Shown in pieces: positions 10,157 through 42,150 of a DNA stretch of 51,682 nucleotides (positions are counted from its first letter, which is position 1; every line of letters starts with the position of its first letter). Source of the stretch: a virus; IMG/VR virus record IMGVR_UViG_3300042450_000154, positions 1 through 51,682 of that record, one strand, 5' to 3'. The notes beneath the pieces were generated by a model, which did not search any database, was not told where the DNA came from, and saw nothing but the letters and a program-made list of their open reading frames with translations. The position numbers were made by a program, and so were the translations under genes.

Positions 10157-10222
10157 CTGGTGTATTGATTGGTCTTAGTCCAAGCAGTCCGGCACTTGTT
10201 GACTGAGATAGATCCGTTGACT

Positions 10223-10274: not shown

Positions 10275-10305
10275 TAAGTAAAACACTTATCGGAGAAACA
10301 AAAGT

Positions 10306-10965: not shown

Positions 10966-11299
10966 TCTAGCCTATCATGTCGCCTCAACGGTTGACAGGG
11001 ATAGAGCACACATTAGTTTGATTGTAAGGAAATCACAATTGTTGGCTATAGGTAGTAATAATTGGAAGACACACCCCAAAACTGTAAAGTATGGTTACAT
11101 GTACCCATACCTACACTCTGAGTTGGATGCCTTCCGTAAGATTAAAACCCCTACTGACCGCATGATATTATATAACTTTCGATTTAGTAAGACAGGCAAA
11201 CTAGGTATGGCAAGACCATGCAAGTTCTGTATGCCGTGGTGTACTCATGTCTTTGATAAGATAATATTTTCAAATGAAGAAGGTATGTTTGATGGCTGA
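10949..11299 (+). CDS. CDA-fold (deoxy)cytidylate deaminase-like protein
   Basis: 116 residues. The zinc signature of the cytidine deaminase superfamily is present: HSE (H56, E58) followed by PCKFC (C91, C94). Length is short but complete for the fold. It overlaps thyX by 17 nt. dCMP to dUMP would feed ThyX, but free-nucleotide versus nucleic-acid substrate cannot be told from sequence. The catalytic set is intact. Confidence 0.7.
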   Translation: MDRWVNLAYHVASTVDRDRAHISLIVRKSQLLAIGSNNWKTHPKTVKYGYMYPYLHSELDAFRKIKTPTDRMILYNFRFSKTGKLGMARPCKFCMPWCTHVFDKIIFSNEEGMFDG

Positions 11300-11498
11300 T
11301 TTAAAACCGCCCAATACTTCCCATATGGAAGGAACTTCTCAACAAGATTTAATCACACTCCTGCAAGAGGAACGCGATGCTGCTCGTACTGAACTGCTTG
11401 CGTATGATTCCTTGCATGGTAGGATAACACTAAAGCAAGCAGCTAAACTAAGACAATGGGGCTACCTAATCAAGGAGAATTCAATTGGCAAAAGATAA
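11292..11498 (+). CDS. Hypothetical protein
   Basis: 68 residues from ATG 11292, which has GAAGG about 8 nt upstream; an in-frame ATG at 11274 is less likely. It is charged and helical (QQDLITLLQEERDAARTELLAY), possibly a short coiled coil. The stop lies within the start of the next, TTG-initiated gene. Not recognised. Confidence 0.5.
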   Translation: MADLKPPNTSHMEGTSQQDLITLLQEERDAARTELLAYDSLHGRITLKQAAKLRQWGYLIKENSIGKR

Positions 11499-11643
11499 AC
11501 CGTGGCTCAAAGCTAAGAAGCGTGACAAGTCACAGTCAGGTAAGGGTGATAAGTATCGCCCAGTTGATCGTGAAATGTATGAAAAAAATTATGAAGCTAT
11601 CTTTGGTAAACCAAAAGAAATAAATAAAGATGAACCTAAATGA
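11485..11643 (+). CDS. Small basic phage protein, TTG start
   Basis: 52 residues. A TTG start is inferred because AAGGAG (11473-11478) sits 6-8 nt upstream and no ATG exists before codon 31. The protein begins AKDKPWLKAKKRDKSQSGKGD and has YRPVDREMYEKNYEAIFGK. A KGD..RPVD...Y..NY..IFG pattern is familiar from very short proteins in many phages; function unknown. It overlaps its neighbours on both sides. Confidence 0.65.
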   Translation: MAKDKPWLKAKKRDKSQSGKGDKYRPVDREMYEKNYEAIFGKPKEINKDEPK

Positions 11644-11839
11644 ACTCGAAGAACTGGTGTATGATTTGGCAGCACTTAGTCACAAGCTTGGTCGTATTGA
11701 AACGGATGGTACGACAAGTCAAAACAAGTATGATAAGTTGGTTGACGAGCGTAACGATATCAAGGCATTAATTAGAACTGGCTTTAATCAAATGTCAGAC
11801 AACACCACCTTAGGGTGGGGCAAGGGTAAAGATGAGTGA
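11630..11839 (+). CDS. Hypothetical helical protein
   Basis: 69 residues, mostly alpha-helical with alternating charge (LNELEELVYDLAALSHKLGRIE, then KYDKLVDERNDIKALI), likely a short coiled coil. It overlaps the preceding and following genes by about 10 nt each. Not recognised. Confidence 0.5.
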   Translation: MNLNELEELVYDLAALSHKLGRIETDGTTSQNKYDKLVDERNDIKALIRTGFNQMSDNTTLGWGKGKDE

Positions 11840-12113
11840 ACTAGATGGATGGTTGCAAATGAATTTTCCTGTTGGCTCTTTCATAGTACACTCTGATGCT
11901 GCAGGTATTGGTGGTGATGATAGATTGTACCTTCGCATACAGATGTCTAATAAGAATGTTAACTTTATTGTTTACGAATCTGAGGATCCTAATGGATATC
12001 GAACAGATGAAGATCAGGCTATAGCAAGCTTTTGTTTTAGCCCAGAGTTTCTTATCAAGCTAGCAAAGATCGGATCAATTGATTTAAATGAGTCTATTCC
12101 AAAGCAAGACTGA
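11832..12113 (+). CDS. Hypothetical protein
   Basis: 93 residues, beta-rich by pattern (GSFIVHSDAAGIGGDDRLYLRIQM, NVNFIVYESED). It overlaps the primase/helicase start by 26 nt, suggesting translational coupling. Not recognised. Confidence 0.55.
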   Translation: MSELDGWLQMNFPVGSFIVHSDAAGIGGDDRLYLRIQMSNKNVNFIVYESEDPNGYRTDEDQAIASFCFSPEFLIKLAKIGSIDLNESIPKQD

Positions 12114-15847: not shown

Positions 15848-16340
15848 TGGAAGAATTGTATTTTATAACTTCAAGAAGGTACAAGGGTGGCGATACTATG
15901 CCATTCGTTTACTATCTTGGAGCCGTCATACTCATGCTCACATTGAGTTTGATCTAAGTATACCATTTGCTTTTGTAGTGGTAGATCGTAAGCCAGTAAA
16001 GGTAATGAGACTTGCCAATCTTAAACAACTAAAGATAAGCAAGTACTATGAGTTTGATCTAGGATCTATAGACATGAGTGAAGAAGATATTACTTTTGCT
16101 TACAAATATAAACCACTCAATAGTTATAAGATGCTAGTGTATACACTCATAGGTAAACACATTGGTATGAAACAACCAACCAATTGTATTACTTTTATAT
16201 GTGACTATTTAAAATTTAAAGGTTGGGATACACCCAATCTGTTCAACCCTAAACAATTATGGGAAAGCTTACATGATAACGATAATGATCGGTGGACAGG
16301 CAAGAGTCGGGAAGACAACACTAGCAAAGTGGATCAGTGA
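15837..16340 (+). CDS. Possible permuted papain-like (YiiX/NlpC-type) protein
   Basis: 167 residues. HTHAHIEF (H31, H33, H35) comes early and TNCITFICDYL (C117) comes later. This His-then-Cys order resembles circularly permuted NlpC/P60-like thiol hydrolases. If so, it could cleave peptidoglycan or an amide, and it is the nearest thing to an endolysin in the window. The similarity is weak and the middle is unlike any family I know. It overlaps the kinase gene by 68 nt. Confidence 0.4.
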   Translation: MKVNGRIVFYNFKKVQGWRYYAIRLLSWSRHTHAHIEFDLSIPFAFVVVDRKPVKVMRLANLKQLKISKYYEFDLGSIDMSEEDITFAYKYKPLNSYKMLVYTLIGKHIGMKQPTNCITFICDYLKFKGWDTPNLFNPKQLWESLHDNDNDRWTGKSREDNTSKVDQ

Positions 16341-17013
16341 GTACGCTTATAACAATAAGTATACACCAGTGATTGTTCCCTTTGCTGCTGCCCTTAAGGA
16401 AGAAGCGGCTAAGAAGGGATACACTAAGGATACCAATCAAGAAGAGTATCGTGAGTTCTGTCAGACCCTTGGCTCTACTATGAGACAAGAAGATCCAGAC
16501 TACTGGGTTAAACAATTCCGAATTAAGATTAAGAAACTATATGAGGAAGAGCAAGCTGCTCTGAAGGCTGACCCATCTATCTGGCATGAGAAGGTTGTCA
16601 TTGTAGATGACTGTCGCTATACCAATGAGATCGCTGCTGCTCGTGACATCCGTGCTCTTACAGTCTTCATCTCAGCAGGTGAGCGTGAACTCCCTGAGAA
16701 GTTTGCAGAGTGGAGAACACATGAGTCTGAAGCACTAGCAATTGCTATTGAGACAGGCAATAAACAATATGAAGACATGTTTCATTACACACTAAAGAAT
16801 GATGAGAGTGAGGCAGCATTCAAAACTAAGTGCAATACAAAGTTTGATGAATGGTTTCACCTACTCTCCGAATCAATGTTAGATGATTTGTGTAACTGTG
16901 AGCTGTGCCTATCCTCAAGAGAAGACAGACTACCTGATGGAGATACTGTGTTCAAAGAGATCATGGAAATTTTTATAGATAAGGAAGACGATGATAAGCC
17001 AACCAAGACCTGA
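16273..17013 (+). CDS. Deoxynucleoside monophosphate kinase-like protein
   Basis: 246 residues. The P-loop is GGQARVGKTT (about residues 7-16), and VIVDDCRYTNE (about 112-122) matches the D-x-R-(Y/F)-x-N-E motif of phage dNMP kinases (T4 gp1 type). It would phosphorylate dNMPs to dNDPs. A downstream ATG at 16285 would still keep the P-loop. The C-terminal extension contains CNCELC, which could bind metal. It sits with exonuclease and dUTPase genes. Confidence 0.8.
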   Translation: MITIMIGGQARVGKTTLAKWISEYAYNNKYTPVIVPFAAALKEEAAKKGYTKDTNQEEYREFCQTLGSTMRQEDPDYWVKQFRIKIKKLYEEEQAALKADPSIWHEKVVIVDDCRYTNEIAAARDIRALTVFISAGERELPEKFAEWRTHESEALAIAIETGNKQYEDMFHYTLKNDESEAAFKTKCNTKFDEWFHLLSESMLDDLCNCELCLSSREDRLPDGDTVFKEIMEIFIDKEDDDKPTKT

Positions 17014-17770
17014 TACTGCTGTGCTTGACGGAGACATCATTGCCTATCGTGCTGCCTTTTGGGCAGACCAAGAAGGCATTGAGTACCTTGCGGAGCGCAT
17101 TGAACATGATGTCAAGGCATGGACTCCAGTAGGAGTAACGAAAGTATATGTGGCTATCTCCTGTGATCGTAAAGATAACTTTCGTAGACAAGTGTGGGAA
17201 CCATATAAAGCTCATCGGGATGTGAAGAAACAAGCACCAGATTGTTTATCATATGCTGTTGATTTAATTAAACAGAACGACATACTCTTTGTTCCTACCC
17301 TAGAGGCTGATGATATTATGGGACTTATGGCTTCAGGCAATAAGGCTATTGCCGTAACCATTGACAAGGATCTCCGGTCTGTACCGGGGTGGCATTGGAA
17401 CCCAGACAAAGAAGTTAAACCGCTGGAACTTGATACTTATACCGCTGACTTTAACTTCCACAAGCAGTGGATCATGGGTGATACGACTGATAATATCCCC
17501 GGTATCTGGAAGTGGGGACCTGCCAAGGCAGAGAAGTGGCTTAAGTATGTCCATCCAAGGAACTGGACAGCCGCCGTATTGGCAGCTTATGACCAAGCTA
17601 AGCCTCAGGAAATGGATAGATATGGATATGATTACTGTCTCGCTATGGCTAGGTGTGTTCGCATCCTTAGACATGGTGAATATAACAAGAAAACTAAGGC
17701 TCCACTATTGTTTGACCCAATAGTTGGGGCTACTAAGAGTGATACTCAAGGGAACACTAATGAACACTGA
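16991..17770 (+). CDS. T7 gp6-like 5'-3' exonuclease (FEN family)
   Basis: 259 residues. FEN/5' nuclease motifs: LDGDIIAYRAA (D13, D15), EADDIMG, TIDKDLRSVPG and GDTTDNIPGI..WGPAKAEKWL (acidic cluster plus helix-hairpin-helix). It removes RNA primers and degrades host DNA in T7-like phages. AAGGAAG lies just before the ATG. The C-terminus reads IVGAT over the 17-nt repeat and its stop overlaps the dUTPase start. Confidence 0.93.
   Translation: MISQPRPDTAVLDGDIIAYRAAFWADQEGIEYLAERIEHDVKAWTPVGVTKVYVAISCDRKDNFRRQVWEPYKAHRDVKKQAPDCLSYAVDLIKQNDILFVPTLEADDIMGLMASGNKAIAVTIDKDLRSVPGWHWNPDKEVKPLELDTYTADFNFHKQWIMGDTTDNIPGIWKWGPAKAEKWLKYVHPRNWTAAVLAAYDQAKPQEMDRYGYDYCLAMARCVRILRHGEYNKKTKAPLLFDPIVGATKSDTQGNTNEH
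17719..17735 (+). repeat. 17-nt exact repeat, copy 2
   Basis: Identical to 744-760; the inner 13 nt also occur at 9003. It lies in the last codons of the exonuclease, 25 nt before the dUTPase start. CCCAA/TTGGG can pair around TAG, so it can also form a small hairpin. Regulatory meaning is inferred from position only. Confidence 0.5.
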
Positions 17771-23256: not shown

Positions 23257-23545
23257 GAAAGTTAATAAAGCTAGCATGTCTTGTAACAAACCTACTAAGT
23301 CTCCTAACCCGAATAAGAAACGGGTAGTAAAGGCTTGTGCTAATGGGCAAGAGAAGATCATTCATTATGGGGCAGCAGGTTATGGTAACAACTATAGTCC
23401 TGAAGCTCGTAAGTCTTTCAAGGCTAGACATAAGTGTGATTCCGCAAGTAATAAACTCACTGCTAAATACTGGGCATGCAAAGACCTATGGGGTGGACCC
23501 GGTAAGTCTAAGACATCATGCCCCAAAAATAGAAAATGTAAGTAA
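23249..23545 (+). CDS. Small Cys/Lys-rich conserved-type protein
   Basis: 98 residues from ATG 23249, with AGGAGG 8 nt upstream; overlaps the portal stop. Five or more cysteines in a basic background: MSCNKP, VKACANG, RHKCDS, YWACKDLW, TSCPKNRKCK. The GYGNNYSPEARKSFKARHKCD...LTAKYWACK pattern is familiar from aquatic phage and related proteins of unknown function. It might bind metal or nucleic acid. It opens the fibre-type cassette. Confidence 0.6.
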   Translation: MAKKVNKASMSCNKPTKSPNPNKKRVVKACANGQEKIIHYGAAGYGNNYSPEARKSFKARHKCDSASNKLTAKYWACKDLWGGPGKSKTSCPKNRKCK

Positions 23546-23973
23546 TGAGCACAAGCCAAGCATTACAACAACAGCAATTATTTAATACACAAATAGAAAA
23601 CCGCTTACAATTACACACACATCCACTATCAAGTCTGACTCAAAGTGGAGCTATTATAGGTCAAGTACCTACATGGAACGGAAGTACATGGGCAGCGGCA
23701 GCACAATTAGGTACTGGAAATGTTGAAGTAGCAGTACCTGATTACTCTAATATAAATACTGTAGCAAACTTTAGTGCTCCTGTATCTTTTACTAGCCCTC
23801 TTTTTGTATTGCAGATAGGGGCTACTATTCCAACGGATGGTCAAGTATTAACAGCATCAGGAGAAAATGGAACGGCAATTTGGGCTGATCCCATAAGCGT
23901 AGGCATGATTGATGGTGGCTTTCCTAGTGATAACTACAGCAACATCGCAATTATAGATGGAGGTACACCTTAA
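23545..23973 (+). CDS. Putative tail/fibre-associated protein
   Basis: 142 residues with a helical, Gln-rich N-terminus (QALQQQQLFNTQIENRLQ), a WNGSTW segment and a Gly/Ser/Thr/Ala-rich beta-type remainder. The C-terminus contains two DGG motifs (MIDGGFP, IIDGGTP), shared in form with the ends of the next two proteins. It is TAATG-linked to its neighbours. Role in fibre or adhesin assembly is inferred from composition and context. Confidence 0.55.
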   Translation: MSTSQALQQQQLFNTQIENRLQLHTHPLSSLTQSGAIIGQVPTWNGSTWAAAAQLGTGNVEVAVPDYSNINTVANFSAPVSFTSPLFVLQIGATIPTDGQVLTASGENGTAIWADPISVGMIDGGFPSDNYSNIAIIDGGTP

Positions 23974-24389
23974 TGGCAGCTAAAATTCAAATAAGACGGG
24001 GTACTGCTGCACAATGGACTGCTGCTAATCCAGTTTTAATTGTTGGCGAATTAGGATTTGAAACTGATACAAAGTTGATTAAGGCTGGTGACGGTACAAC
24101 AGCATGGACAGCTCTTGCTTACTACACAGGAGCAGCACCAGACGCACTAAATCTTACAGGTACAACACTTGCCCCTACTATTGTTTCATCTAGTTTAACC
24201 ACAGTTGGAACTCTTACTGGTCTGACTGTCTCTAATACTATTACAGGAAACATAAACACTGCTTCACAGTTACAAAACCCAAGAACAATAAGTCTTGGAG
24301 GAGAAGCAACTGGTAATACAAGTTTTGATGGATCAGCTAATGTTACAATTACAACAACTATTCCACTGCTTGACGGCGGGAATTACTAA
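23973..24389 (+). CDS. Fibre-type protein with Mtd_N-like N-terminus
   Basis: 138 residues. The start KIQIRRGTAAQWTAANPVL followed by GELGFETDT and GDGTTAW is characteristic of the major-tropism-determinant N-terminal/fibre attachment domain found in many phage tail proteins. The rest is a Thr/Leu-rich fibre shaft. It ends LLDGGNY, the terminal tag shared with neighbours. Likely trimeric, attached to the virion. Confidence 0.7.
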   Translation: MAAKIQIRRGTAAQWTAANPVLIVGELGFETDTKLIKAGDGTTAWTALAYYTGAAPDALNLTGTTLAPTIVSSSLTTVGTLTGLTVSNTITGNINTASQLQNPRTISLGGEATGNTSFDGSANVTITTTIPLLDGGNY

Positions 24390-24397
24390 GGAAAACT

Positions 24398-25303
24398 ATG
24401 CCAAATACAATTAGAATTAAACGAAGTACAGGAATCGCTGCACCAGCCTCACTTGCAAACGCAGAATTGGCGTTTACAGAAGGAACAAAAACTCTTTACT
24501 ATGGAGTAGGTACTGGTGGAGCAGGTGGAACTGCTACTACTGTTGAAGCAATTGGAGGACTTGGTGCTTTTGTTTCTCTTGGAAGTACTGCACAAAGTAT
24601 TGCAGGTGTTAAGACCTTTACTGGTGCTACTGTACTTGGAACTCCGGGATCTGGAACGCTCACTAATTGTAGTGGTCTTCCATTAACCACAGGTATAACT
24701 GGTACTCTTGCTGTTGGTAACGGAGGTACTGGAGCTACTACGCTTGCACTAGCGGGTATTGCCTTGCGGGGTGCAAACTCTGACATTACCTCCCTATCAG
24801 GACTGACAACCGCTCTATCTGTAGGACAGGGCGGTACGGGCGTTACTACAAGCACAGGCACAGGTGCAGGAGTTCACGCAGTAGGTCCAACATTTACAGG
24901 AACAATTGGCTGTGATGCTATTACATCTACAGGAAATATTATTGTTGGTGGTAATCTAACTGTCAACGGAACTACTACTACAATTAATGCAACTACAACG
25001 ACTCTTGATGATCCCATCATTACTCTTGGTGGTGACACCGCTCCTGCAGCGGATGACAATAAAGATCGCGGAGTAGAATTTAGGTGGCACAATGGAACTT
25101 CGGCAAAGCTTGGCTTCTTTGGATTTGACGATTCAACTGGATACATGACTTTTATTCCTGATGCAACAAATACAGCAGAGGTTTTCTCTGGAACTATGGG
25201 TGACATCCAAGCGACTAATTTCCGTGGTGCTTTGATTGGTAATGCAAGTACAGTTACAAATGGTTTATACACAGACAGCACCGTTGACGGTGGATCTTAT
25301 TAA
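24398..25303 (+). CDS. Fibre-type protein, Gly/Thr-rich
   Basis: 301 residues. The N-terminus (TIRIKRSTG, then NAELAFTEGTKTLYYG) is a variant of the attachment domain of the previous protein. The shaft has LAVGNGGTGATT and VGQGGTGVTT motifs, typical of trimeric phage fibres, then GNLTVNGTTTTI and a LDDPIITLGGD end domain. It terminates VDGGSY. Probably a receptor-binding or decoration fibre. Confidence 0.7.
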   Translation: MPNTIRIKRSTGIAAPASLANAELAFTEGTKTLYYGVGTGGAGGTATTVEAIGGLGAFVSLGSTAQSIAGVKTFTGATVLGTPGSGTLTNCSGLPLTTGITGTLAVGNGGTGATTLALAGIALRGANSDITSLSGLTTALSVGQGGTGVTTSTGTGAGVHAVGPTFTGTIGCDAITSTGNIIVGGNLTVNGTTTTINATTTTLDDPIITLGGDTAPAADDNKDRGVEFRWHNGTSAKLGFFGFDDSTGYMTFIPDATNTAEVFSGTMGDIQATNFRGALIGNASTVTNGLYTDSTVDGGSY

Positions 25304-25311
25304 GGTAACTA

Positions 25312-25953
25312 ATGGCAAATATAATTCAGCTTAAAAGAAGCGCAACGGCATCAGCGATACCATCAAGTGGATCTCTAGTTGCGGGAGAACTAGCTGTAAA
25401 CACAGCAGATGGAAAATTATATCTAAAAAAAGATGATGCATCGGTTGTGCAAATAGGTGCTGGATCAGGTGCTGGATTAGGGGATGCTAATACATTCACA
25501 GCACTAAATAGTTTTAATGCAGGTATATCTGCTGCTGGTGCAACATTTTCTAGCGCAGTAAACATTACATTGAATACCGCTCCCGCACTCAAAATCGGAA
25601 CTCATGGAACAAAAGACCTACTATTATCATCTACTGATGGTGTAGGACTTATAGAACAAGGTGGGGCAGGTTCAGCACAACTAACGATTAGACAAGCAAG
25701 CGGTGGTATTGTTAAGATTGGTGGTGTTACTAATTTTGCTTATGTATCAGATGCTACTGACGCAATAGCATTGCAAACAATAGGAGTATTATATCTTGGA
25801 GATGCTGATGGTGCTAACAATAGTACCAGCATCACGATTGATGATACTGTTTCAAACATAACATATTCAGCAGGTCAACATACATTTTATGGTCCTATTA
25901 CCGCACCAAATATTGCTGGGTTAGAACAAACATTCTTGTTTATGGGAGCATAA
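25312..25953 (+). CDS. Fibre-type protein with Mtd_N-like N-terminus
   Basis: 213 residues. It begins NIIQLKRSATAS, then LVAGELAVNTADGKLYLKKDD, again the fibre attachment pattern; the rest is beta-rich and Gly/Thr-rich. It lacks the terminal DGG tag of the three preceding proteins and ends LEQTFLFMGA. Third of a tandem set of paralogous N-termini. Confidence 0.65.
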   Translation: MANIIQLKRSATASAIPSSGSLVAGELAVNTADGKLYLKKDDASVVQIGAGSGAGLGDANTFTALNSFNAGISAAGATFSSAVNITLNTAPALKIGTHGTKDLLLSSTDGVGLIEQGGAGSAQLTIRQASGGIVKIGGVTNFAYVSDATDAIALQTIGVLYLGDADGANNSTSITIDDTVSNITYSAGQHTFYGPITAPNIAGLEQTFLFMGA

Positions 25954-25957
25954 AAAT

Positions 25958-26284
25958 ATGGCAAATGTATACAAAGTTTTAGGTCAATCAAATCCTGCAG
26001 CAACAACACTCACAACGCTTTATACAGTACCAGCATCAACTTCTGCTGTTGCTTCTACTTTAACAGTATGTAATATTGGAGTATCAACAACGGTTCGTGT
26101 TGCAGTTCGCCCTGCGGGTGCAGGTATTGCAAATCAACATTATATTATATATGAAACAGTAGTAAATGCTAACGATACCTTATTCTTCACTCTTGGTTTG
26201 TCGTTGGCTACCACAGATGTTGTGTCTGTTTATGCAGGAAGTGCAAATGTTTCTTTTAATCTTTATGGGACACAAATAACATGA
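25958..26284 (+). CDS. Phage virion-associated beta-sandwich-type protein
   Basis: 108 residues: TLYTVPASTSAV near residue 24, then TVCNIGVSTTVRVAVRPAGAGIANQHYI, ANDTLFFTLGLSLATTDVVSVYA and SFNLYGTQIT. This arrangement is common in small phage tail-associated proteins whose exact role is unknown. The stop overlaps the next ATG, tying it to the BspA-like gene. Confidence 0.6.
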   Translation: MANVYKVLGQSNPAATTLTTLYTVPASTSAVASTLTVCNIGVSTTVRVAVRPAGAGIANQHYIIYETVVNANDTLFFTLGLSLATTDVVSVYAGSANVSFNLYGTQIT

Positions 26285-28752
26285 GTTTTGGATATGCCAC
26301 AAAAAGAAATATAACACCGAAACAAGTATCAATTAGTAATATTGATACTAGGATTGATAATATTACTCCTTGGGTAAGAAATCCTTCATGGACTGCGCTT
26401 CCTGCTATGACAGGTGCAGATAATAAATTTGTTGGTTTGCACAGAGTAGATGTAGGCAACGCAAACTTTTTAGCACTCAGTGCCGCAGGAAACTATACTG
26501 TAGACTGGGGTGACGGAAGTGCCACAGAAAATATTAATAGTGGTGTGGTTGCTCAGCACCAATATGTTTTTACTGATGCAGGATTGGCTAACACCAATGC
26601 TCCTGTAACTCTTACTGATGCGGGTGATGTTGTTACTCGCACAGCACACGGATATTCAAACGGAAACACAGTACGTTTTTATAATATTGTAAGTACCACA
26701 GGATTGAGTGAAGGACAGGTATATTATGTGGTTAATACATCTGCTGATACATTTCAGGTATCTACTACGCTTGGTGGATCTGTCCTACCACTCACGACAA
26801 ACGGAAGTGCTACTTTACTACCGTACAAACTAGCAGTTGTTACTGTGACACCACAAGCAGGACAATCATTTACAACTATAAATGTACATAAAAAACACAA
26901 TCAAAATAGTTTAAATTCTTATAGCAGTGGATTTCTTGATATAAAAATTGCAGGTTCAAGTCTTACAAGTATTTTGATTGGTGTTGCAACTGCGGGGGCT
27001 AGCACACGACTTATTGATTTTAGATCATTAGAACAAGTGTGTATATTGAGTAATGCTATGACAGGCACAAGTGCAAGTTACTTGTTTTCTACTATGACTG
27101 CTTTACAAAATGTTGTTTTGGTTTTTGATTCTGCTTTGACGGATATAAGTTTTATGTTTACTGGTTGTACCTCACTCACCACAGTGCCTTTGTTTAATAC
27201 TGCAAGTGTGACAAATATGACTAGTATGTTTAATACTTGTACCTCACTCACCACAGCGCCTTTGTTTAATACTGCAAGTGTGACTAGTATGAATAGTATG
27301 TTTACTTTTTGTGGCTCACTCACAATAGTGCCTTTGTTCAATACTGTAAATGTAACTGATATGGCTTCTATGTTTAATGCTTGCCGAAAACTTATAAGAG
27401 TGCCTTTGTTTAATACTGCAAGTGTGACTACTATGCAGAGTATGTTTAGTAGTTGTCAATCACTCATCACAGTGCCTTTGTTTAATACTACAGGTACAAA
27501 CTTAAATATGAATAATATGTTTAATACTTGTACCTCACTAACAACCGTGCCTTTGTTTAATACTGCAAGTGTTACTAATATGAATGCTATGTTTGGTAGT
27601 TGTAGCGCACTCCAATCATTGCCTTTGTTTAATACTGCAAATGTAACAAATATGGGTAGTATGTTTAGTGGTTGTAGCTCACTCACCACAGTGCCTTTGT
27701 TTAATACTGCAAATGTAACAAATATGTCTAATATGTTTCAATTTTGTACTCATCTTAAAACAGTTCCTTTGTTTGTTACTACAGGCGCAAGTTTAAGTAT
27801 GGCTTCAATGTTTCTTAGTTGTACCTCACTCACCACAGTGCCTTTGTTTAATACTGCAAGTGTGGTTTCTATGGGTAGTATGTTTTCTAATTGTACCTCA
27901 CTCACCACAGTGCCTTTGTTTAATACTGCAAATGTAACAAATATGGGTAGTATGTTTAGTAGTTGTGCCTCGCTCGTAACAGTACCTTTGTTTAACACTG
28001 CAAGTGTGACTACTGTAGGTAGTATGTTTGGTTTCTGTGCCTCACTCACCACAGTACCTGTATTTAATCTCACGAATGCGACTACAGTCTCTATGTTTGG
28101 TAGTTGTCCCTCACTGGTTAAAGCAACTGTATCTGGTGTTAGATTTGCTCAGACTGTCAATGGTTCCAAACTTTCTGAAACAGAACTTACAAGTATTATT
28201 GATAATATAGGAAGAGCAAACTCACAAGGCTTAGTATTAAATATTAGCAGCAATTGGGGAGCAGTAACTCCTGTTTCACTTACTTGCACTCCAACCGCAG
28301 GATTAACCACAATTACAGCAGCAAACACAGCAGGTGTTGTTGTGGGTATGCAGTGGACTGGTACAGGAAGTCCTGCCACTACAGCAATTGCTTGCACCTT
28401 TACAGATGCTGGTGATTTAGTCACAAAAAACGCACATGGTTTATCGAATGGTGATCGTGTTAGTTTTGCCACAATTGTTACCACAACAGGAATTCTTACC
28501 AATACAATATATTTTGTAATTAATGCAGCCGCAGACACTTTCCAAGTAGCAGCCACTTCAGGTGGTGCTGCTATTGCTCTTACTACAAACGGAACAGGAA
28601 CAGTTCGTTGGGAATCTGTAGTTACTGCTATCACACCAAACACTAACATTACAGTTAGTAGACCCGCAACAGCAACTGGTTCTACCTCATTGGCATTTAG
28701 AACCCTAAAAACACAAACGGCTCTTCTCAAAGGATGGGCTGTAACAGGATAA
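26281..28752 (+). CDS. BspA/DUF285 leucine-rich-repeat surface-type adhesin
   Basis: 823 residues. An N-terminal VDWGDGS motif (about 74-80) is typical of BspA-type proteins. Thirteen tandem repeats (residues about 298-610) follow the form SLTTVPLFNTASVTNM.SMF..C, the BspA/DUF285 LRR. Two copies of a HG.SNG..V.F..I..TTG / ADTFQV..T.GG domain flank the repeats (about 110-183 and 706-780). In bacteria these LRRs mediate surface binding; here a receptor-binding or glycan-binding fibre tip is inferred. There is no signal peptide, as expected for a virion protein. Confidence 0.8.
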   Translation: MSFGYATKRNITPKQVSISNIDTRIDNITPWVRNPSWTALPAMTGADNKFVGLHRVDVGNANFLALSAAGNYTVDWGDGSATENINSGVVAQHQYVFTDAGLANTNAPVTLTDAGDVVTRTAHGYSNGNTVRFYNIVSTTGLSEGQVYYVVNTSADTFQVSTTLGGSVLPLTTNGSATLLPYKLAVVTVTPQAGQSFTTINVHKKHNQNSLNSYSSGFLDIKIAGSSLTSILIGVATAGASTRLIDFRSLEQVCILSNAMTGTSASYLFSTMTALQNVVLVFDSALTDISFMFTGCTSLTTVPLFNTASVTNMTSMFNTCTSLTTAPLFNTASVTSMNSMFTFCGSLTIVPLFNTVNVTDMASMFNACRKLIRVPLFNTASVTTMQSMFSSCQSLITVPLFNTTGTNLNMNNMFNTCTSLTTVPLFNTASVTNMNAMFGSCSALQSLPLFNTANVTNMGSMFSGCSSLTTVPLFNTANVTNMSNMFQFCTHLKTVPLFVTTGASLSMASMFLSCTSLTTVPLFNTASVVSMGSMFSNCTSLTTVPLFNTANVTNMGSMFSSCASLVTVPLFNTASVTTVGSMFGFCASLTTVPVFNLTNATTVSMFGSCPSLVKATVSGVRFAQTVNGSKLSETELTSIIDNIGRANSQGLVLNISSNWGAVTPVSLTCTPTAGLTTITAANTAGVVVGMQWTGTGSPATTAIACTFTDAGDLVTKNAHGLSNGDRVSFATIVTTTGILTNTIYFVINAAADTFQVAATSGGAAIALTTNGTGTVRWESVVTAITPNTNITVSRPATATGSTSLAFRTLKTQTALLKGWAVTG
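27172..28110 (+). repeat. Thirteen 72-nt coding tandem repeats
   Basis: Direct repeats of 72 nt (24 codons), with two units of 75 nt and a last unit of 69 nt, all in frame. The core TGCCTTTGTTTAATACTGCA is almost unchanged between units, so DNA identity is high, pointing to recent expansion or gene conversion. Such repeats can change number by recombination and vary binding reach. Confidence 0.9.
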
Positions 28753-28756
28753 CAAT

Positions 28757-28939
28757 ATGGCATTTTATAAAATAGAAAACGAAGAAGTACAAATTGTAGA
28801 AACCTGTATCGCTGGAATGGATCTTGATCTTCATTACTTACAAAAAGATACTTATACCTATCCCGTACAGGGATGGTATTGGTTTGACACCATAGAAGAA
28901 GCATATGCGTTTTTTGATTTGGTGTATAAAGAACCCTAA
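28757..28939 (+). CDS. Small hypothetical protein after adhesin
   Basis: 60 residues: KIENEEVQIVETCIAG at the start, then WYWFDTIEEAYAFFDL at the end. It begins 4 nt after the BspA-like gene. Small proteins after fibre genes are sometimes assembly chaperones, but nothing in this sequence proves that role. Confidence 0.55.
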   Translation: MAFYKIENEEVQIVETCIAGMDLDLHYLQKDTYTYPVQGWYWFDTIEEAYAFFDLVYKEP

Positions 28940-28948
28940 AGAATAATA

Positions 28949-29047
28949 ATGGCAAAGAAAACATACAAATGCAACTGTGGTAAAACTACCACATGCACAG
29001 GTAAAGACGCTACAAAGATAGTGTATCCAAAGAAAGATAAAAAATAA
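28949..29047 (+). CDS. Tiny Cys/Lys-rich protein
   Basis: 32 residues, too short for most gene finders. It has CNCGKTTTC (three cysteines) in a basic background and a KKDKK end. The TAA overlaps the next ATG (TAATG), supporting translation. It may be a small metal-binding peptide; function unknown. Confidence 0.45.
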   Translation: MAKKTYKCNCGKTTTCTGKDATKIVYPKKDKK

Positions 29048-29571
29048 TGATTCATACACATACAATGTCTCAAACAAAGCAAGCAAGAGAGGATATGTTT
29101 ATTGGAGCAACGGGTTCCAATGCTAACTCTCTTACTGCATACAACGAACATGTTAGTTTAACTTCTATGGCAAATGATGCCACAAGTTTAATTATCCCTT
29201 CAGGTCTTTATACCCATGTACGGATCCATCCTTTACTACTTAGCTACACGACTAGTGCTGGCTTTCGAGTAACAGGTTGGTCTAAACTAGGTAATACTTA
29301 CTATCCAACACTGTTGTTTGTAGGTTCAATTACAGGAGTTCAGGCTTCTACAATGATTACCAATAACGGTGTTGCCCTTAAAGGTGTATACGGTATTGCA
29401 GCAACCGCTGGATTGGGTGCAAACACATTAATTAATAACTCTGCTGTGCTGTCGGTAGCATCAGTAGTTGTCCCAGTGTTTGGATGTTCGCATATTGAGG
29501 TTGATTTTATCTCAAATACAGCTACATCAGCATACGCTAACTTCTTGTATAGCTATTGCTCTATTAATTAA
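29047..29571 (+). CDS. Putative virion decoration/fibre protein
   Basis: 174 residues, beta-rich with many Ser, Thr, Ala and Gly (LIIPSGLYTHVRIHPLLLSYTTSAGFRVTGW, SVASVVVPVFGCSHIEVDF). There is no recognised family, but the pattern and position within the fibre cassette point to a structural protein. An internal ATG at 29065 is an alternative start. Confidence 0.5.
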   Translation: MIHTHTMSQTKQAREDMFIGATGSNANSLTAYNEHVSLTSMANDATSLIIPSGLYTHVRIHPLLLSYTTSAGFRVTGWSKLGNTYYPTLLFVGSITGVQASTMITNNGVALKGVYGIAATAGLGANTLINNSAVLSVASVVVPVFGCSHIEVDFISNTATSAYANFLYSYCSIN

Positions 29572-29619
29572 CCGTATAACTCCATACTCTAACATAATTA
29601 TTTATAAGAAAGGAATACT

Positions 29620-29703
29620 ATGAAGAAGAAACCAGCTAAGAAGATGATGATGGATAAGAAGATGGCGGTTAAGAAAGCCGCTTCCAAGAAGAAGCCTTAT
29701 TAA
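29620..29703 (+). CDS. Tiny Lys/Met-rich peptide
   Basis: 27 residues after AAAGGA, of which about half are Lys, with a Met run (KKMMMDKKMAVKKAASKKK). It could be a DNA-condensing or ribosome-binding peptide; composition is the only clue. It stands in the 150-nt gap before the scaffold gene. Confidence 0.45.
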   Translation: MKKKPAKKMMMDKKMAVKKAASKKKPY

Positions 29704-30840: not shown

Positions 30841-32058
30841 ATGGCTGCATTTACAGGATCACCAATCGGCGAAGATAACTTAGCACCAACACGCTCAGCA
30901 GTTGATGTTGCAACCTCAGGTGGCGCACTCTCCCAGAATAAACTCTGGCTACCACTCTGGTCGGGCGAAGTCATCAATGCATATGACCAATATAACATGT
31001 TTGAAAACATGATTACCACCAAGACTCTTACTGGTGGCTTCTCTTACGAGTTCCCAATCACTGGTACTGTTGGTCTGAACCCATCGTGGGGTGCTGGTGT
31101 TGAACTCGGTGGCGATGTTGGCGATAATAAGACTACCACTATCAAGATCAATCTTGATAACCGCCCTATGGCGGCTCACTTTGAAACCGACAATGTTGAC
31201 ATGCTTATTACTCAGTGGGATTACCGCTCTGAGTTGGCTCGTCAGGCTGGACTGACCCTTGCTAGCACCCGCGACCGTCAGATTCTGATGGCACTTGTTG
31301 CTGCAGGTGCTGTTCCAGCACAAGCACAAGATCCCCGTGGTCTTGCCGCTGCTGCATTCCATGTACCAAGCCAGATTAAGAATGATTCTTCTCCTGCAGC
31401 ACTTCCAGCTGCTGCTACTGATGTTGAAGGACTGAAGATTCTGCAAGCTATCGAGGACTACCTCGTTACTTGTCAGGAGAATGATGTTGCTATTGGTAGC
31501 GTCTATTGCGCTGTACCTCCAAAGGTATTCCAAGTCATTCGTGCGCTTGGTATTCCTCGTAGTAACACCACCTTTACTAACTACCCACTCTTTGGCGCAA
31601 GCGCAGAGGTTGGTGGTCTTGGTGCTCCACTTGGACAGGGCATGAACGCAATGACTGATACCCTTGATTATATGGGTGTCAAGATTGTTAAGACCAACCA
31701 CATTCCGAAGATTAAGCATATCACTACTGCCAATAACATTGGTGGTTCTAAGTATAACTTGGACTGCTCGGCATTTGGTATCTATGGTATCATCTTCCAG
31801 TCAGAAGCTGTTGCTGGTCTATCCCTCATGGGCATGAAGGTTGACACCGTACAGGATGTTCGCCGCAATACTCAGTTCACCGTAGGCAGCATGCTTAAGG
31901 GTACTGGTATTCTCAAGCCTGAAATGGTTAAGCTTATTACTGCTGGTGCAACGGCAGCTGCAACTGATGAGCGTTCCGAGATTGTTACTCTTTTAAAGGG
32001 TGACACTGTTGGTAACTGGACTGGTGGTTTCGGTGCAGAATACGCAGCTACAACCTAA
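30841..32058 (+). CDS. Major capsid protein (T7 gp10-like)
   Basis: 405 residues (T7 gp10A has 345, gp10B 398). HK97-fold podovirus capsid: N-terminal arm, LWSGEVINAYDQYNMFENMITTKTLTGGFSYEFPITG, LDNRPMAAHFETDNVD and a C-terminal GIIFQSEAVAGL. Codons are noticeably more uniform (GGT, GCT, CGT, AAC), as in a highly expressed gene. I see no slippery site for a second frame-shifted form. A strong terminator follows. Confidence 0.95.
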   Translation: MAAFTGSPIGEDNLAPTRSAVDVATSGGALSQNKLWLPLWSGEVINAYDQYNMFENMITTKTLTGGFSYEFPITGTVGLNPSWGAGVELGGDVGDNKTTTIKINLDNRPMAAHFETDNVDMLITQWDYRSELARQAGLTLASTRDRQILMALVAAGAVPAQAQDPRGLAAAAFHVPSQIKNDSSPAALPAAATDVEGLKILQAIEDYLVTCQENDVAIGSVYCAVPPKVFQVIRALGIPRSNTTFTNYPLFGASAEVGGLGAPLGQGMNAMTDTLDYMGVKIVKTNHIPKIKHITTANNIGGSKYNLDCSAFGIYGIIFQSEAVAGLSLMGMKVDTVQDVRRNTQFTVGSMLKGTGILKPEMVKLITAGATAAATDERSEIVTLLKGDTVGNWTGGFGAEYAATT

Positions 32059-36162: not shown

Positions 36163-39100
36163 ATGTCAACATATGATAACTTAAATATAGCACAAGCAAC
36201 ACTTATCTTTGATTCCAATGGTAATACATCAGTAGGAGCCGGAGAGTTTGACTTAAGTACTATGGCATTCTTGCCGAATGTTCCTTTGATTGATCAGATT
36301 GAAGTTGAACGAGTGTTTGATACGGGAGCGGATACTAAATTTGGAACCAATCAATTTACAATTGCAGATCGAAGACAATGTTTTATTTTTCCAAAAAACT
36401 GGTATTCAATCAATGAACAAACTAAGATACTAAAGTTTGTAGACTTAGCTACAATACCAACAAAATTTGAAATGGCAGTAAATCCTGCATATTATCCTCT
36501 TAGTCGAACTTTTTTATTGGCTTTACCAGATGCAAATGATAATGAGCAATGGATTAATATTCCTGTGGTTGCAAATACAACTGCTGAAGGACCGCCAGTT
36601 CGGCAGTATGATAAAGTTTTTATTCGTAGAAAAACAATTTCCTTAAATAGTATTGTAACTTTTGCTCCCGGTACTCGTTTAACTACCACACAATTAAACT
36701 TACAGTTTGATCAGTTAAAATATTTAATACAAGAACTTGTAGCTAAGATTCGCAATGAGATTATTCTTAAGTATGATGAAAACGCAGTTGATGGTCCCTT
36801 CTTAGGGAACACCGACTTGAAAATGAACAATAACTTTATTAAAGATGTAGCAACTAAAGAAATTACAGATGCTAATACACCTTTCACTGGTCAGGATAAT
36901 ATTGTATACACTGGTGGTGCATTTATTCCCAATGTTTTTGCAGTTAAAAATGCTGTAACAAAGGGTGCAATCTATCGTACAGGTGTAGTTGCTGGTACTT
37001 CAACATTTACTGGTGACTTTACTACTAGACTTCCAGATTCTGCAACAAACTATAAGATTACAAACTTAGCTCCGGGTACTGTTTCAACAGATGCAGTTAA
37101 TTTGAGTCAGCTAAACAATGCGGATAATTTAACTTCAGGTACAGTAGGTGTTGCTAGACTTCCCCTTAACATTCCTCTAGCTAATCTTTCAAGTGCTGCT
37201 GGACAAACAACTTATACCCTACCCCTAGAAAATTTACCAAACACATTAGGTACAAATATTGGTACATTTGGTAAGTCAGCACCCGGCAATGCTGATAATA
37301 TGGTATATGCAACAGTTAATAATAAGGGTATACTGAGTGGTTTGGGTCATCGAAGCATGGCAGTTGAGGATCTACCTACTGTATCTGGTCTAGTTGCTCA
37401 AGCGTATGGTGGCACAGGTAAACTACTTTCACTTACTGCAGATGCAAAAGGTCGCATTACTATTATTGCTGCTAACGACATAGTTAATGCGGATCTTCCC
37501 CTTGTTTCTACTTTAACAGCACAAGTATATGGTTCTACTGATGCAAGTAGTCCATTAACTAAGTTTGAAGTAAATAGCAAGGGTATCATAACCTCTGCTT
37601 CTCATAGAGCTATTGCAGTAGTTGATCTACCCACTACTGGCGTTACTCAAGCCAGTACTTATGGTAAAGCTACAGCTACTAATACTAACAATATGTTACA
37701 GATTGCTTATGATACTACAGGCAGAGTAACGCTTGCTAGCCATAGAAACATGGGTCATGCTGATCTTCCTGATAACATTCCACTAAGCAAACTAAGCAAT
37801 GCTTTATCGCAAAGTTATATCTTACCTAAGGATGCTATTGCTGATGGGTCAATTTTATTTGCTAAACTAGATACAGTTACAGCAAATCAATCAGCTTTAC
37901 CATTAAGTTTTATTCCTGATGGTATTAATCTCAGTAAGATTAATCCCGCAAATGCTGGTCAGTTTGTTCTTCCAGATGCTTGTTTAAATAATACTGCGGT
38001 TGTACCTAATGCTTATAGTGGTAGTCCGATTAAAGATATTACAGTAGATGCTAAAGGAAGAATAACATCTATTAGCGAACGAGCTATTGGTAGTGGTGAT
38101 ATTCCTGCGTTGGGTGCTTCAGCTATTAGTATTACTACTTCCCCATTTGCTGATGCATTAATTCCACCTTTAGTTGTCTCTTCACAAGGTAGTTATGGTA
38201 GTACCACTACTATCCCTACGTTTACTGTTGATACTAAAGGACGAGTTACTGTGGCTGCAAACTCTGTAGCCCTATCAACCGCGCATATCGGTGATTTTAA
38301 TACTAACACCAATAATCTTATTGATGGGAGAGCAATCTCGCATGCTGGTGGAACATTCTACAATGCGGGTACTAAGTTAATTAGTAATGTAGTTAATCCC
38401 GTAAGTGATCAAGATGCAGCTACTAAGAAATATGTAGTGGATAATTTCCAAAGTCTTAGTGGTTTTAATACGGCTGCAGCAACGCAGATTCAAGCAAATG
38501 CTGTATTCTGGGATTCAGCCAATAGCCGCTTTACTGCCCTAAGATCTTCAAATGATCAAAATATCTTTGGTGTTGCTACGCCTACTGTAAATAACCATGC
38601 AGCGAATAAATTGTATGTAGATACAACTGTTGCTAACTATCAAACAACATCTGGTTTAGCTGCTGCAGTCTTAACTCCAATTCAAAGCAATGCTGTATAT
38701 TGGGATGGTACTAATTTCACTGCGTTTAAATCAGGCGAAAATAGAAAAATTCGTGGTGTTGCTACGCCGTCAGATAATAGTGATGCTGTACCATTAGGTT
38801 ACTTTAATACCAATGCTCTGGTAGCCGTTGGTGGTGTTATTAGTGCTGGCAATAAAATACTTACAGGTCTTGGTACTCCAGCACTCAATGCTGCTCAAGC
38901 TACTGATGCTGTTAACTTTGGTTTACTTCAAAGTGTTGTAAATACTGGTACTTTAATTGGTAGTACAGTTCCACAAGTTTATCGTCTTGCTGTAGGAGCA
39001 GTTGCTGCTACTCCAACAATTGGCAGTACTACCTATAATCAATATTCTTATCAATTTCTAGATAGTTCTAATCCTTTGATGGGAACAACTAGCAGTATGC

Positions 39101-42100
39101 TTTTAGTAGAAGTTGAAGGAAGTACTATTAAATTTACTCCTCAACCTGCTGCTCCAACCACAAGTGCTTTTAATGGATACTTCTATTTACAGGATGCTGG
39201 TACAACAAAAACAGTTCATGTTTATACTACCGCTACTTTAACTGGTTTTATTACTATTAGAAACTTTGGTCTATCTAGACTTGTTTCTGGTGCTGCAGGA
39301 ACCACATCAGCACAAGGTATTGTTTCTATTGTAAATAATGGTGGTATTACTGTAAATGCGGGTGCAATTTCACTAACTACAGCTACCGATACACAACTTG
39401 GTGGCGTTACAATTGCCACTAATGGTGGTTTAACCAATACATCTGGTTCAATTTCAGTAACCCGAAGTGATTCTACTACTAGTACCTCTACGACAATTTT
39501 AGCTAACTCTAAAGCAGTAAATGATCTTAAGGGTCTTTCAATGCTGCTTGATGGCACACAGCAAATGACAGGAAAGCTAAGGACTGCTACTGCAACCACT
39601 GCAATAGCTTCTCTATCTATTCCTTCTAGTGCAGCAACACTTGGTACATTAGTTAGTGGTGACCTGTGGAATCTTAATGATGTCTTACAGTTTAGAACAA
39701 CAGCAGCCACTAAACAAATTGCTTATAGAGATGCAGCTACAACAGGTGCTCTTGGTTTAGTGCAAATTAGTTCAGGCAATGAGAGTGGTCTGAGTATCAC
39801 TGGTCCCGGTGTGCTTTCTATTGCTGCTGCAAGTAGCACAGCATTAGGTGGTATTAAAATTGGCACTGGTCTTGAGCTTTCATCTGGTTCTACTATAGTA
39901 AGATTATCTTCTCTATTAAACTCTACCCTTACTGATACAGCAGCCACTTCTAATGCAGCAAAAAATATTTATGATTATGCTGTAGGTGTTCAGGCAAATC
40001 TAACTGCAACTAATAGTAGTCTAGCTACTACAAATAGTAATGTAACTACAGCTCAAAATACTGCTAGTGCTGCCTTGCCAAAGGCTGGCGGTATAATGAC
40101 GGGTATGATTCAGTTAGCTGGTAGTACTACTACACTATCTCCTTTACGGTTTGTTGGTGGTACTGCTCCGACATCGCCTACAGCAGGTGATGTTTGGTTT
40201 GAAAGTAACACACTTAAAATGCGTATTGGTGTTACAACTAAAGATATAGCATTTACTGATTCTGCTCTTAGCGGAACTGCAGCAACGGCTACTAAGCTAG
40301 CTAATGAAAGAGCTATTACATTGACTGGTCCTGTTACTGGAACGGTTAATTTTGATGGCTCTCAGGCAGTCAGTATTGCTACTACAGTAGCCACTAATGC
40401 AATTGCTCTGGGTACTAATACTACTGGAGATTATATTGCATCTGCTACAGGTACTGATGGTGTTTCAGTTACTGGTAGTGGTGGTGAAGGTGCTGGTATC
40501 ACTATTGCTAATACTGATAAGGGTAGTTCACAAGCTATCTTTAAAACTATTACTCCATCTTCTGGAACATCTGTTACAGCTTCTGCAAATGCAAGTGTAT
40601 TAAATCTAAGTGGTAGTGGTAATATTACAGTTACTGGTGCTGGTTCAACAATTACCATTGCTAATACTGCTACAGCTCCAATTTCCTTTGGAACAATTGC
40701 AGTAACAGGAACAACAGGACAAACCGCAGTAGCAGCAAATAGTTCAGCTGCGACTCTAACACTTAATGCTGGTACTGGTATGAGCATTACTACTGATGCT
40801 GGTACTGATATTATAACTCTTGCTAATACAGGTATTACTAGTATTAGTGGTACAGGTAGTCAAGTAAATGTAAGTGCTGGTGCTACTCCAACAATTAGTT
40901 TACCACAGAATATCCATAGTGGTGCTTCTCCAACATTTGCTGGAGCCACACTTGGATCTGTTATTATTGCTGCTGGTACGGCTAATACACTTACAACAGG
41001 CACTAATCTAGATTTAATTTTAGATCCTAATGGTACTGGTAAAATTAGTTTGCTAGCTAATGTGGACTGTTCTTCTAATACATTGAATGCTCTGGGTGCT
41101 TGTACTTTAGGCACTGTTTTATCTGATGCTATTACAATGAGAACTACTGGTGCCAAGCTTAAATTTGGTTCAGCAGTAGATACTACTATTGAAGCTAGTG
41201 CTGGTGCTAGTGCTGGTGTTTATGCTGTTGGTGATATGGTACTTAGAGTCCCAGCATCTGGTAAAGCATTCTTAATTAAAGATCCTACTGCTGTTCCTAC
41301 TGCAGGAACTGAGTTGATTACAAAGACAGCTTTAGATTCTGCAGTTACTTCAGGTATCAGTGGTGGTAATCTAATGCCAACAGCTGGTACTGTACATACA
41401 GCCGCTCAAACATTAGGTTGCAGTATTGGAAACTTTGTTGTAAAAACTGGTACTGATACACCAACAGCAACTAGATTAACTATTGTTCCTTCCGGAGCTG
41501 CTACTTTCAGTGGTGCTTTAACAGTTAATGGTGGTACAACTTTAGATACTACCCTTGTAGTTACTGGTACAACAACATTAAATCAAGAAGTTACGGTTAA
41601 TAGTTCATATAATATAACTGCAGGTAAGGCTCCGTCTGCTGCAAATCACTTGGCTAATAAGACTTATGTTGATGGTTCTATAGATAGTATAAGTGATACT
41701 GATGCTAGACTTCCAATTAAAAAACTGCTTATGCAGGTTCCTATAAGACAATTTGTAATAGGAGCAATAACTGCGGCTGCGGGTGCCGTTATTACTACTA
41801 GTGGTATGACTGTTAATGTACCAAAATATTTTCCAATATTCCATTCATCGGGTGGTTCTAGAAATACATCTCTTACTGTACTTGAGGGTCATCAAATTAT
41901 AATTCTTGAGCAACAACTAACAGCGGGTGGTACAACTTTTGCCTATACCAAATCTGCGTTATTTGCACCTGAATCTCCAGTTGCAGCAATGCTAGCTTAT
42001 CGTATAGATAATAATTCTATGACTACTACTGGAACATTTACTAGAGTATCTGTAGGAAGTGTTTTAACTGGTGGTGTAGGTGGTACTTCATTCCAACTTA

Positions 42101-42150
42101 ATCTTGGTGGTGGAGCAACTATTGAATATGTTTTAATGCGTATAGCTTAA
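36163..42150 (+). CDS. Giant tail fibre protein with T7 gp17-type N-terminus
   Basis: 1,995 residues (T7 gp17 has 553). The N-terminal ~150 residues (FIRRKTISLNSIVTFAPGTRLTTTQLNLQFDQLKYLIQEL) match the podovirus fibre attachment domain. The shaft is long and repetitive: DAKGRIT...DLP modules (about 400-720), ATKKYVD-type and Gly/Thr/Ala-rich fibre repeats to about 1,850. A compact C-terminal domain without a chaperone/peptidase signature ends the protein. It binds the cell surface. No stop or frameshift is seen through 5.99 kb. Confidence 0.92.
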   Translation: MSTYDNLNIAQATLIFDSNGNTSVGAGEFDLSTMAFLPNVPLIDQIEVERVFDTGADTKFGTNQFTIADRRQCFIFPKNWYSINEQTKILKFVDLATIPTKFEMAVNPAYYPLSRTFLLALPDANDNEQWINIPVVANTTAEGPPVRQYDKVFIRRKTISLNSIVTFAPGTRLTTTQLNLQFDQLKYLIQELVAKIRNEIILKYDENAVDGPFLGNTDLKMNNNFIKDVATKEITDANTPFTGQDNIVYTGGAFIPNVFAVKNAVTKGAIYRTGVVAGTSTFTGDFTTRLPDSATNYKITNLAPGTVSTDAVNLSQLNNADNLTSGTVGVARLPLNIPLANLSSAAGQTTYTLPLENLPNTLGTNIGTFGKSAPGNADNMVYATVNNKGILSGLGHRSMAVEDLPTVSGLVAQAYGGTGKLLSLTADAKGRITIIAANDIVNADLPLVSTLTAQVYGSTDASSPLTKFEVNSKGIITSASHRAIAVVDLPTTGVTQASTYGKATATNTNNMLQIAYDTTGRVTLASHRNMGHADLPDNIPLSKLSNALSQSYILPKDAIADGSILFAKLDTVTANQSALPLSFIPDGINLSKINPANAGQFVLPDACLNNTAVVPNAYSGSPIKDITVDAKGRITSISERAIGSGDIPALGASAISITTSPFADALIPPLVVSSQGSYGSTTTIPTFTVDTKGRVTVAANSVALSTAHIGDFNTNTNNLIDGRAISHAGGTFYNAGTKLISNVVNPVSDQDAATKKYVVDNFQSLSGFNTAAATQIQANAVFWDSANSRFTALRSSNDQNIFGVATPTVNNHAANKLYVDTTVANYQTTSGLAAAVLTPIQSNAVYWDGTNFTAFKSGENRKIRGVATPSDNSDAVPLGYFNTNALVAVGGVISAGNKILTGLGTPALNAAQATDAVNFGLLQSVVNTGTLIGSTVPQVYRLAVGAVAATPTIGSTTYNQYSYQFLDSSNPLMGTTSSMLLVEVEGSTIKFTPQPAAPTTSAFNGYFYLQDAGTTKTVHVYTTATLTGFITIRNFGLSRLVSGAAGTTSAQGIVSIVNNGGITVNAGAISLTTATDTQLGGVTIATNGGLTNTSGSISVTRSDSTTSTSTTILANSKAVNDLKGLSMLLDGTQQMTGKLRTATATTAIASLSIPSSAATLGTLVSGDLWNLNDVLQFRTTAATKQIAYRDAATTGALGLVQISSGNESGLSITGPGVLSIAAASSTALGGIKIGTGLELSSGSTIVRLSSLLNSTLTDTAATSNAAKNIYDYAVGVQANLTATNSSLATTNSNVTTAQNTASAALPKAGGIMTGMIQLAGSTTTLSPLRFVGGTAPTSPTAGDVWFESNTLKMRIGVTTKDIAFTDSALSGTAATATKLANERAITLTGPVTGTVNFDGSQAVSIATTVATNAIALGTNTTGDYIASATGTDGVSVTGSGGEGAGITIANTDKGSSQAIFKTITPSSGTSVTASANASVLNLSGSGNITVTGAGSTITIANTATAPISFGTIAVTGTTGQTAVAANSSAATLTLNAGTGMSITTDAGTDIITLANTGITSISGTGSQVNVSAGATPTISLPQNIHSGASPTFAGATLGSVIIAAGTANTLTTGTNLDLILDPNGTGKISLLANVDCSSNTLNALGACTLGTVLSDAITMRTTGAKLKFGSAVDTTIEASAGASAGVYAVGDMVLRVPASGKAFLIKDPTAVPTAGTELITKTALDSAVTSGISGGNLMPTAGTVHTAAQTLGCSIGNFVVKTGTDTPTATRLTIVPSGAATFSGALTVNGGTTLDTTLVVTGTTTLNQEVTVNSSYNITAGKAPSAANHLANKTYVDGSIDSISDTDARLPIKKLLMQVPIRQFVIGAITAAAGAVITTSGMTVNVPKYFPIFHSSGGSRNTSLTVLEGHQIIILEQQLTAGGTTFAYTKSALFAPESPVAAMLAYRIDNNSMTTTGTFTRVSVGSVLTGGVGGTSFQLNLGGGATIEYVLMRIA

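Follow-up and report, generated by a model that had tools for sequence, protein, structure and literature searches.

The gene at positions 26281-28752 of the window, as we call the whole 51.7-kb virus record (51,682 nucleotides) that was analysed, encodes a DUF285 protein that we read as an exchangeable, virion-displayed accessory adhesin built of leucine-rich repeats (LRRs) and diversified by recombination of its repeat units and by substitution; we put the probability of this reading at roughly 0.65. The gene itself, its predicted fold, the swapping of its locus, changes in unit copy number and position-specific divergence are shown by the analysis. The features concerned are as follows.

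23545..23973, plus strand: first gene of the swap cassette (cassette comparison)
23599..29604, no strand: span of the swap locus; nucleotide homology with close relatives is lost at 23545-23599 on the left and regained at 29604-29686 on the right
23973..24389, plus strand: cassette fibre-like protein (matches phrog_697 and tail-fibre families)
24398..25303, plus strand: cassette structural/fibre protein (phrog_697)
25312..25953, plus strand: cassette protein with an Mtd_N-like N-terminus (sub-threshold Mtd_N match)
25958..26284, plus strand: 108-aa partner gene; overlaps the start of the adhesin gene (accompanies the adhesin across the family)
26281..28752, plus strand: putative DUF285/BspA-type LRR adhesin, 823 aa (ORF with ATG start; Pfam; AlphaFold pLDDT 88.8)
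26281..26361, plus strand: residues 1-27, disordered N-terminal peptide (pLDDT < 50), possibly a docking segment
26371..27153, plus strand: N-terminal arm, residues 31-291, with the PKD-like YTVDWGDGS motif at residues 72-80 (motif conservation)
26611..26814, plus strand: inserted E1_FCCH-like domain, residues 111-178 (PHROG 4711 match and sub-threshold Pfam E1_FCCH)
27154..28092, plus strand: tandem array of 13 LRR units of 69-75 bp each (unit alignment and Tandem Repeats Finder)
28093..28164, plus strand: degenerate 14th unit forming the array cap, residues 605-628 (unit alignment)
28165..28749, plus strand: C-terminal arm ending in LKGWAVTG (similar ending in most family members)
28396-28605, plus strand: second FCCH-like domain, within the C-terminal arm, residues 706-775 (PHROG/Pfam searches)
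29047..29571, plus strand: 'MIHTHTM' protein, 174 aa (alignment; cluster of 35)
36163..42150, plus strand: T7 gp17-type tail fibre, 1995 aa (PF03906, 2.1e-7; YadA_stalk, 2.3e-9)

The window encodes a T7-type RNA polymerase, primase-helicase, DNA polymerase, portal, scaffold, capsid, tail-tube protein and terminase, and the DUF285 gene has the portal gene (phrog_449) on one side and those for scaffold, capsid and tail tube on the other. Together with the gp17-type fibre, this bears out an earlier note on this DNA, which had placed the repeat protein in the virion gene cluster of a T7-like phage. The same note had missed the gp17-type fibre, which is found in eight of ten related contigs; since this separate fibre is present in the same phage, the DUF285 protein would be a second, additional adhesin. 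The fibre is very large and has a YadA-like stalk; between relatives, conservation is highest in the N-terminal part, and the parts that follow diverge. Elsewhere in the window, identity in the major capsid protein (30841-32058) is only ∼ 59-78% between phages that agree to 94-100% in portal and scaffold, which suggests a variable surface part in that protein. Four tRNA genes (Ile, Arg, Leu, Lys) cluster near the contig start (1916-3207), and a 1450-aa ORF near the contig end (47248-51600) has no Pfam match.

The repeat type assigned in the earlier note is confirmed by a Pfam DUF285 match (PF03382, E 1.2e-44, 151.3 bits against a cut-off of 25) that is far beyond chance. The note had counted thirteen 24-residue repeats. 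Thirteen full units are indeed present (residues 292-604), of which only ten have 24 residues, two having 25 and one 23, and the degenerate cap follows them; Tandem Repeats Finder independently called a period of 72 with 12.6 copies. The VDWGDGS sequence described as a lead-in to the repeats does exist, at residues 74-80, but belongs to a separate PKD-like N-terminal region ∼ 210 residues before the array. The Pfam scan of the protein gave no match to a BACON domain or to the Phage_T7_tail N-terminal domain (PF03906), and by eye the N-terminus (MSFGYATKRNI) has no obvious hydrophobic leader.

Structure prediction, one of the checks that had been proposed, gave an AlphaFold model with pLDDT 88.8 and pTM 0.74 in which disorder is confined to residues 1-27. 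The model was built from 36 family sequences, an earlier one from six sequences having been poor in the arms. Its top Foldseek matches are LRR proteins and phage 'BspA/26-residue repeat' proteins. Matches among solved structures are also mostly LRR proteins; their whole-chain TM scores are low, which is expected when long solenoids differ in curvature. The best viral match, an uncultured Caudovirales '26-residue repeat' protein (A0A6J5ND93), extends over most of the length (E 1.8e-44, TM 0.62/0.54), and members of the same family as the window protein are therefore already in databases. The model thus confidently predicts an LRR solenoid of tandem 23-26-residue repeats.

Related phages were gathered by scans with the scaffold and portal proteins, and comparison with them shows that the whole cassette is what varies around the window phage. 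The cassette (∼ 23.55-29.6 kb) contains several small fibre-like genes and is flanked by the portal and a small conserved gene on one side and by the scaffold on the other. Among contigs with portals 97-100% identical to that of the window, DUF285 occupies the locus in L004, L005, L007 and the window itself, as well as in L008; L003 and L006 were assigned to the DUF285 type by their other genes. About a dozen further contigs of this set hold non-DUF285 proteins at the same place, in at least four other cassettes. The replacement proteins are fibres of 1219-1352 aa, a 733-aa protein or a glycine-rich 240-aa protein, with matches to tail-protein PHROGs, CBM_4_9 and laminin-G families. In one contig (L119) only the inner part, 25415-28949, is replaced. 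No DUF285 match was found anywhere on the whole contigs of nine DUF285-less relatives with near-identical portals, and a single sample, 3300046028, yielded both types (L006 with DUF285, L105 without). The N-terminus of the 'MIHTHTM' protein is near-invariant, and its gene is kept in nearly all alternative cassettes though its neighbours are swapped.

In the closest relatives the array itself is static. It is DNA-identical to that of the window in L003, L004 and L005, and in L006 a single base differs, within residues 601-640 at the array end; all four contigs have 13 units and the cap, without any change in copy number. Variation in the window lineage is thus not rapid. Divergence is seen in L007, which, like the partial L008, retains both arms with mostly ∼ 10-30% fourfold differences to the window. 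Its array has 12 units and a cap instead of 13 and a cap, all its units differ from those of the window and about half of the fourfold sites are changed; judged by this alignment, the whole array is changed between conserved arms. Units within the window array share 73% of fourfold sites, compared with a fourfold identity of ∼ 0.49 between window units and L007 units at the same positions, which points to lineage-specific homogenisation or expansion that is not recent. The high unit-to-unit DNA identity from which the earlier note had argued for a recent expansion was not found: identity between units is moderate (mean 0.76, range 0.56-0.92), and an array with a mean of only 76% is not freshly expanded.

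Copy-number variation, which had also been predicted, is absent among the four closest relatives but does occur in the wider family, where a difference of exactly one unit separates the members of three pairs whose arms are near-identical. Between L184 and L190 there is one substitution, plus a 72-bp indel whose additional unit is an exact tandem duplicate at the protein level (L185 and L186 also have 15 units); L174 and L222 differ by 33 substitutions and one 72-bp indel; and L187 and L188 have 17 of 18 paired units identical and one extra unit. These one-unit differences come from metagenomic assemblies, in which exact tandem units are open to assembly error; taken together, the compared sequences indicate that the change in copy number within the family is real. 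In a further pair, L222 and L239, the arms are 98-99% identical and the arrays 81%. A chimeric unit in L174/L222, produced by crossover inside a unit, was considered and found no clean support in the DNA-level comparison.

Substitutions follow the LRR register. Across 539 distinct 24-aa units there is hardly any variation at M1, F2, C5, L8 and P12, and entropy peaks at positions 3, 6 and 9. In paired units of close relatives, nonsynonymous change reaches 20-53% at positions 3, 4, 6, 7, 9, 10, 17, 18, 21, 23 and 24. Most core positions show 0-4% (position 22 up to 6%; position 20, with 12%, is intermediate) and carry synonymous change instead. With 'exposed' positions set by conservation pattern rather than by computed solvent area, dN/dS in five pairs is ≤ 0.07 for the core and 1.2-2.3 for the exposed positions when local dS is used, or 0.83-1.47 with whole-array dS, the pairs being non-independent. 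Ratios are lower in other pairs (0.14 for L216/L217, 0.50 for L196/L197). As far as these ratios go, exposed change is neutral to diversifying in some lineages, which falls short of proving selection.

A profile scan found relatives encoded on 199 viral contig stretches, 80 of which were kept. The kept members share the WVRP..W/YTVDWGDG arm, the array and usually an LKGW.VTG-like end. YTVDWGDG is invariant in 36 family members, and the E1_FCCH-like insert is absent from L010 and L011. Counting repeats in related genomes, as the earlier note had advised, showed that unit number varies: distinct full-length members have ∼ 4-20 motif-detected units (median 13), counts that come from a regular expression which misses degenerate units and may add one (14 for L007, compared with 12 and a cap by hand). 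In 39 of 86 family loci the gene directly upstream of the adhesin is the 108-aa partner, and many of the others have a gene for 116-122 aa there; phiPsal1 has a homologue of the partner, annotated as putative virion structural protein. Of 34 family contigs tested, 6 encode a T4-type Gp23 capsid protein, so the adhesin module occurs in unrelated phages, while a search of the other family phages for the T7-type RNA polymerase domain PF00940 matched no sequence scanned and is uninformative. One T4-like relative (L187) encodes an HNH homing endonuclease at 15860-17410, a few genes downstream of the adhesin.

The best 79 matches in bacterial genomes mostly cover the array only (residues ∼ 220-690), not the arms, and with the pattern used the arm motif was found in none of them. 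Two proteins on cyanobacterial MAG contigs (L261 and L266, ∼ 9850-11870) visibly carry a GNYTVDWGDG arm on one side of a more degenerate LRR region and a KGWTVLY-like end on the other; they are possibly a pointer to a prophage or to the host, a weak hint at most. A host search of bacterial genomes with the portal found no relatives.

The sharp swap boundaries and the match of replacement proteins to tail-protein, CBM_4_9 and laminin-G families argue for an adhesin, as do the LRR fold, the structural locus, the conserved partner, the spread of relatives over many viral contigs, the one-unit indels, the frozen core with variable exposed positions, arrays that differ between conserved arms, and bacterial matches that are mostly limited to the array. 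We infer from these features that the protein is located on the virion, that it binds a ligand and that its variation alters receptor range. In this reading the N-terminal peptide and the PKD-like arm, probably with the 108-aa partner, would dock the adhesin to a fibre or other virion structure, and a ligand on the host surface would be met by the variable residues that each unit exposes on the curved LRR array. The separate gp17-type fibre would be retained alongside and complemented by the LRR adhesin. The adhesin then changes by three routes: the cassette between portal and scaffold is replaced as a whole, recombination of similar repeats adds or removes single units, and exposed positions are rapidly substituted around a frozen core. 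Against this, the gp17-type fibre alone could serve receptor binding.

With its gene among head genes, between portal and scaffold and away from the gp17 fibre, the protein could also be a fibre that decorates the capsid and attaches to polysaccharide or particles in the environment or to a mucus-like matrix, the repeats providing avidity rather than specificity. Neighbours of the phrog_697 and phrog_2647 type are classed as head structural or decoration proteins, alternative cassettes contain CBM_4_9 and laminin-G-like domains, and BACON proteins near head genes have been proposed as capsid-decorating binding proteins (PMC6949934). However, the adhesin gene comes after tail-fibre genes in other family members, and variation concentrated at particular positions is easier to reconcile with a specific ligand than with generic avidity; we consider capsid decoration rather unlikely. 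The array could instead be a structural spacer, or stalk, lacking a selected binding face and drifting by recombination under relaxed constraint. Unit number varies widely, and the exposed dN is about neutral relative to whole-array dS (0.83-1.47), so relaxed constraint remains compatible with the data; scaled to local dS, exposed positions reach 1.97-2.28 in four related, non-independent pairs (p 0.0003-0.004), and hydrophilic variability over a frozen LRR core resembles recognition LRRs. On balance a drifting spacer appears unlikely.

A non-virion role, as a surface or moron protein on the infected cell or released from it, for example in superinfection exclusion or host clumping, would accord with the bacterial surface location of BspA-like proteins and with similar arrays in many bacterial genomes. 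It is improbable for a protein that, judged by eye, shows no hydrophobic leader, whose gene is replaced by tail-like proteins inside a structural cluster, and whose partner has a homologue annotated as putative virion structural protein. Highly improbable is a selfish spread of palindromic coding elements through the gene with no adhesive role. DUF285 regions have been equated with such elements (PMC2996958) and antisense open frames run over the array, but the core residues are under strong purifying selection, only one chance-like 10-nt inverted repeat is present and dyad symmetry (0.388) is no higher than in a shuffled control (0.394, sd 0.022), which largely refutes palindromes at the unit level. 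A bolder extension of the adhesin reading would be a repertoire system that operates without reverse transcriptase: the partner and the LRR adhesin would form a mobile two-gene module that has spread through both T7-like and T4-like phages, and new binding specificities would arise in it from unequal recombination among the 72-bp units together with diversifying selection on the exposed face, much as in the VLR-type LRR recognition proteins of vertebrates. We regard this as conceivable yet doubtful.

Phages need means to track changing host surfaces, and the known answers are diversity-generating retroelements (DGRs), allele swapping of tail fibres and phase-variable fibres. If our reading is correct, an LRR adhesin with gain and loss of single units, a frozen core and turnover of exposed residues would be another route, one that can be counted in metagenomes, and a DUF285 group now annotated merely by resemblance to bacterial surface proteins would acquire a function. 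Mtd receptor-binding proteins are diversified by DGRs. They resemble the window adhesin in the targeted variability of exposed residues, and a cassette neighbour has the weak Mtd_N match. However, variation in the adhesin is spread through the repeats, and no reverse transcriptase (PF00078) was found in the window or in ten relatives, whose contigs may be fragments, while positive controls matched; DGR diversification was therefore rejected.

With T7 gp17 the protein would share an adsorption function in a T7-like phage; the gp17 N-terminal domain resides on the other window gene (36163-42150). The DUF285/BspA-like (TpLRR) surface proteins of bacteria have the same repeat family and LRR fold; the phage protein differs in its phage-specific arms, its partner gene and its structural locus. 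The same repeats occur in phage proteins annotated as BspA or 26-residue-repeat, in Vibrio phage pir03, Aeromonas LAh10/D3 and the uncultured Caudovirales protein A0A6J5ND93. The openly licensed literature on phage BspA/DUF285/26-residue-repeat proteins yielded annotations only, without a study of role, swap locus or copy number, which is weak evidence of absence. PARCELs (Palindromic Amphipathic Repeat Coding ELements), described as mobile and with a protein motif equated with DUF285 (PMC2996958), are likewise tandem and variable in number with hydrophilic variable positions; the DNA dyad symmetry that defines them was not found in the window array. The BACON tail proteins of crAssphage have tandem domains that grew by single-domain duplication and are a proposed aid to host binding (PMC6949934), on an Ig-like fold in contrast to the LRR fold of the window adhesin. 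A precedent for packaging is given by two DUF285 proteins found in virions of the giant virus AaV (PMC7507832). Of the traits expected in a phage receptor-binding protein, the putative adhesin shows a location in the structural module beside fibre genes, and the combination of conserved arms and a hypervariable module seen between the window and L007 and between L222 and L239.
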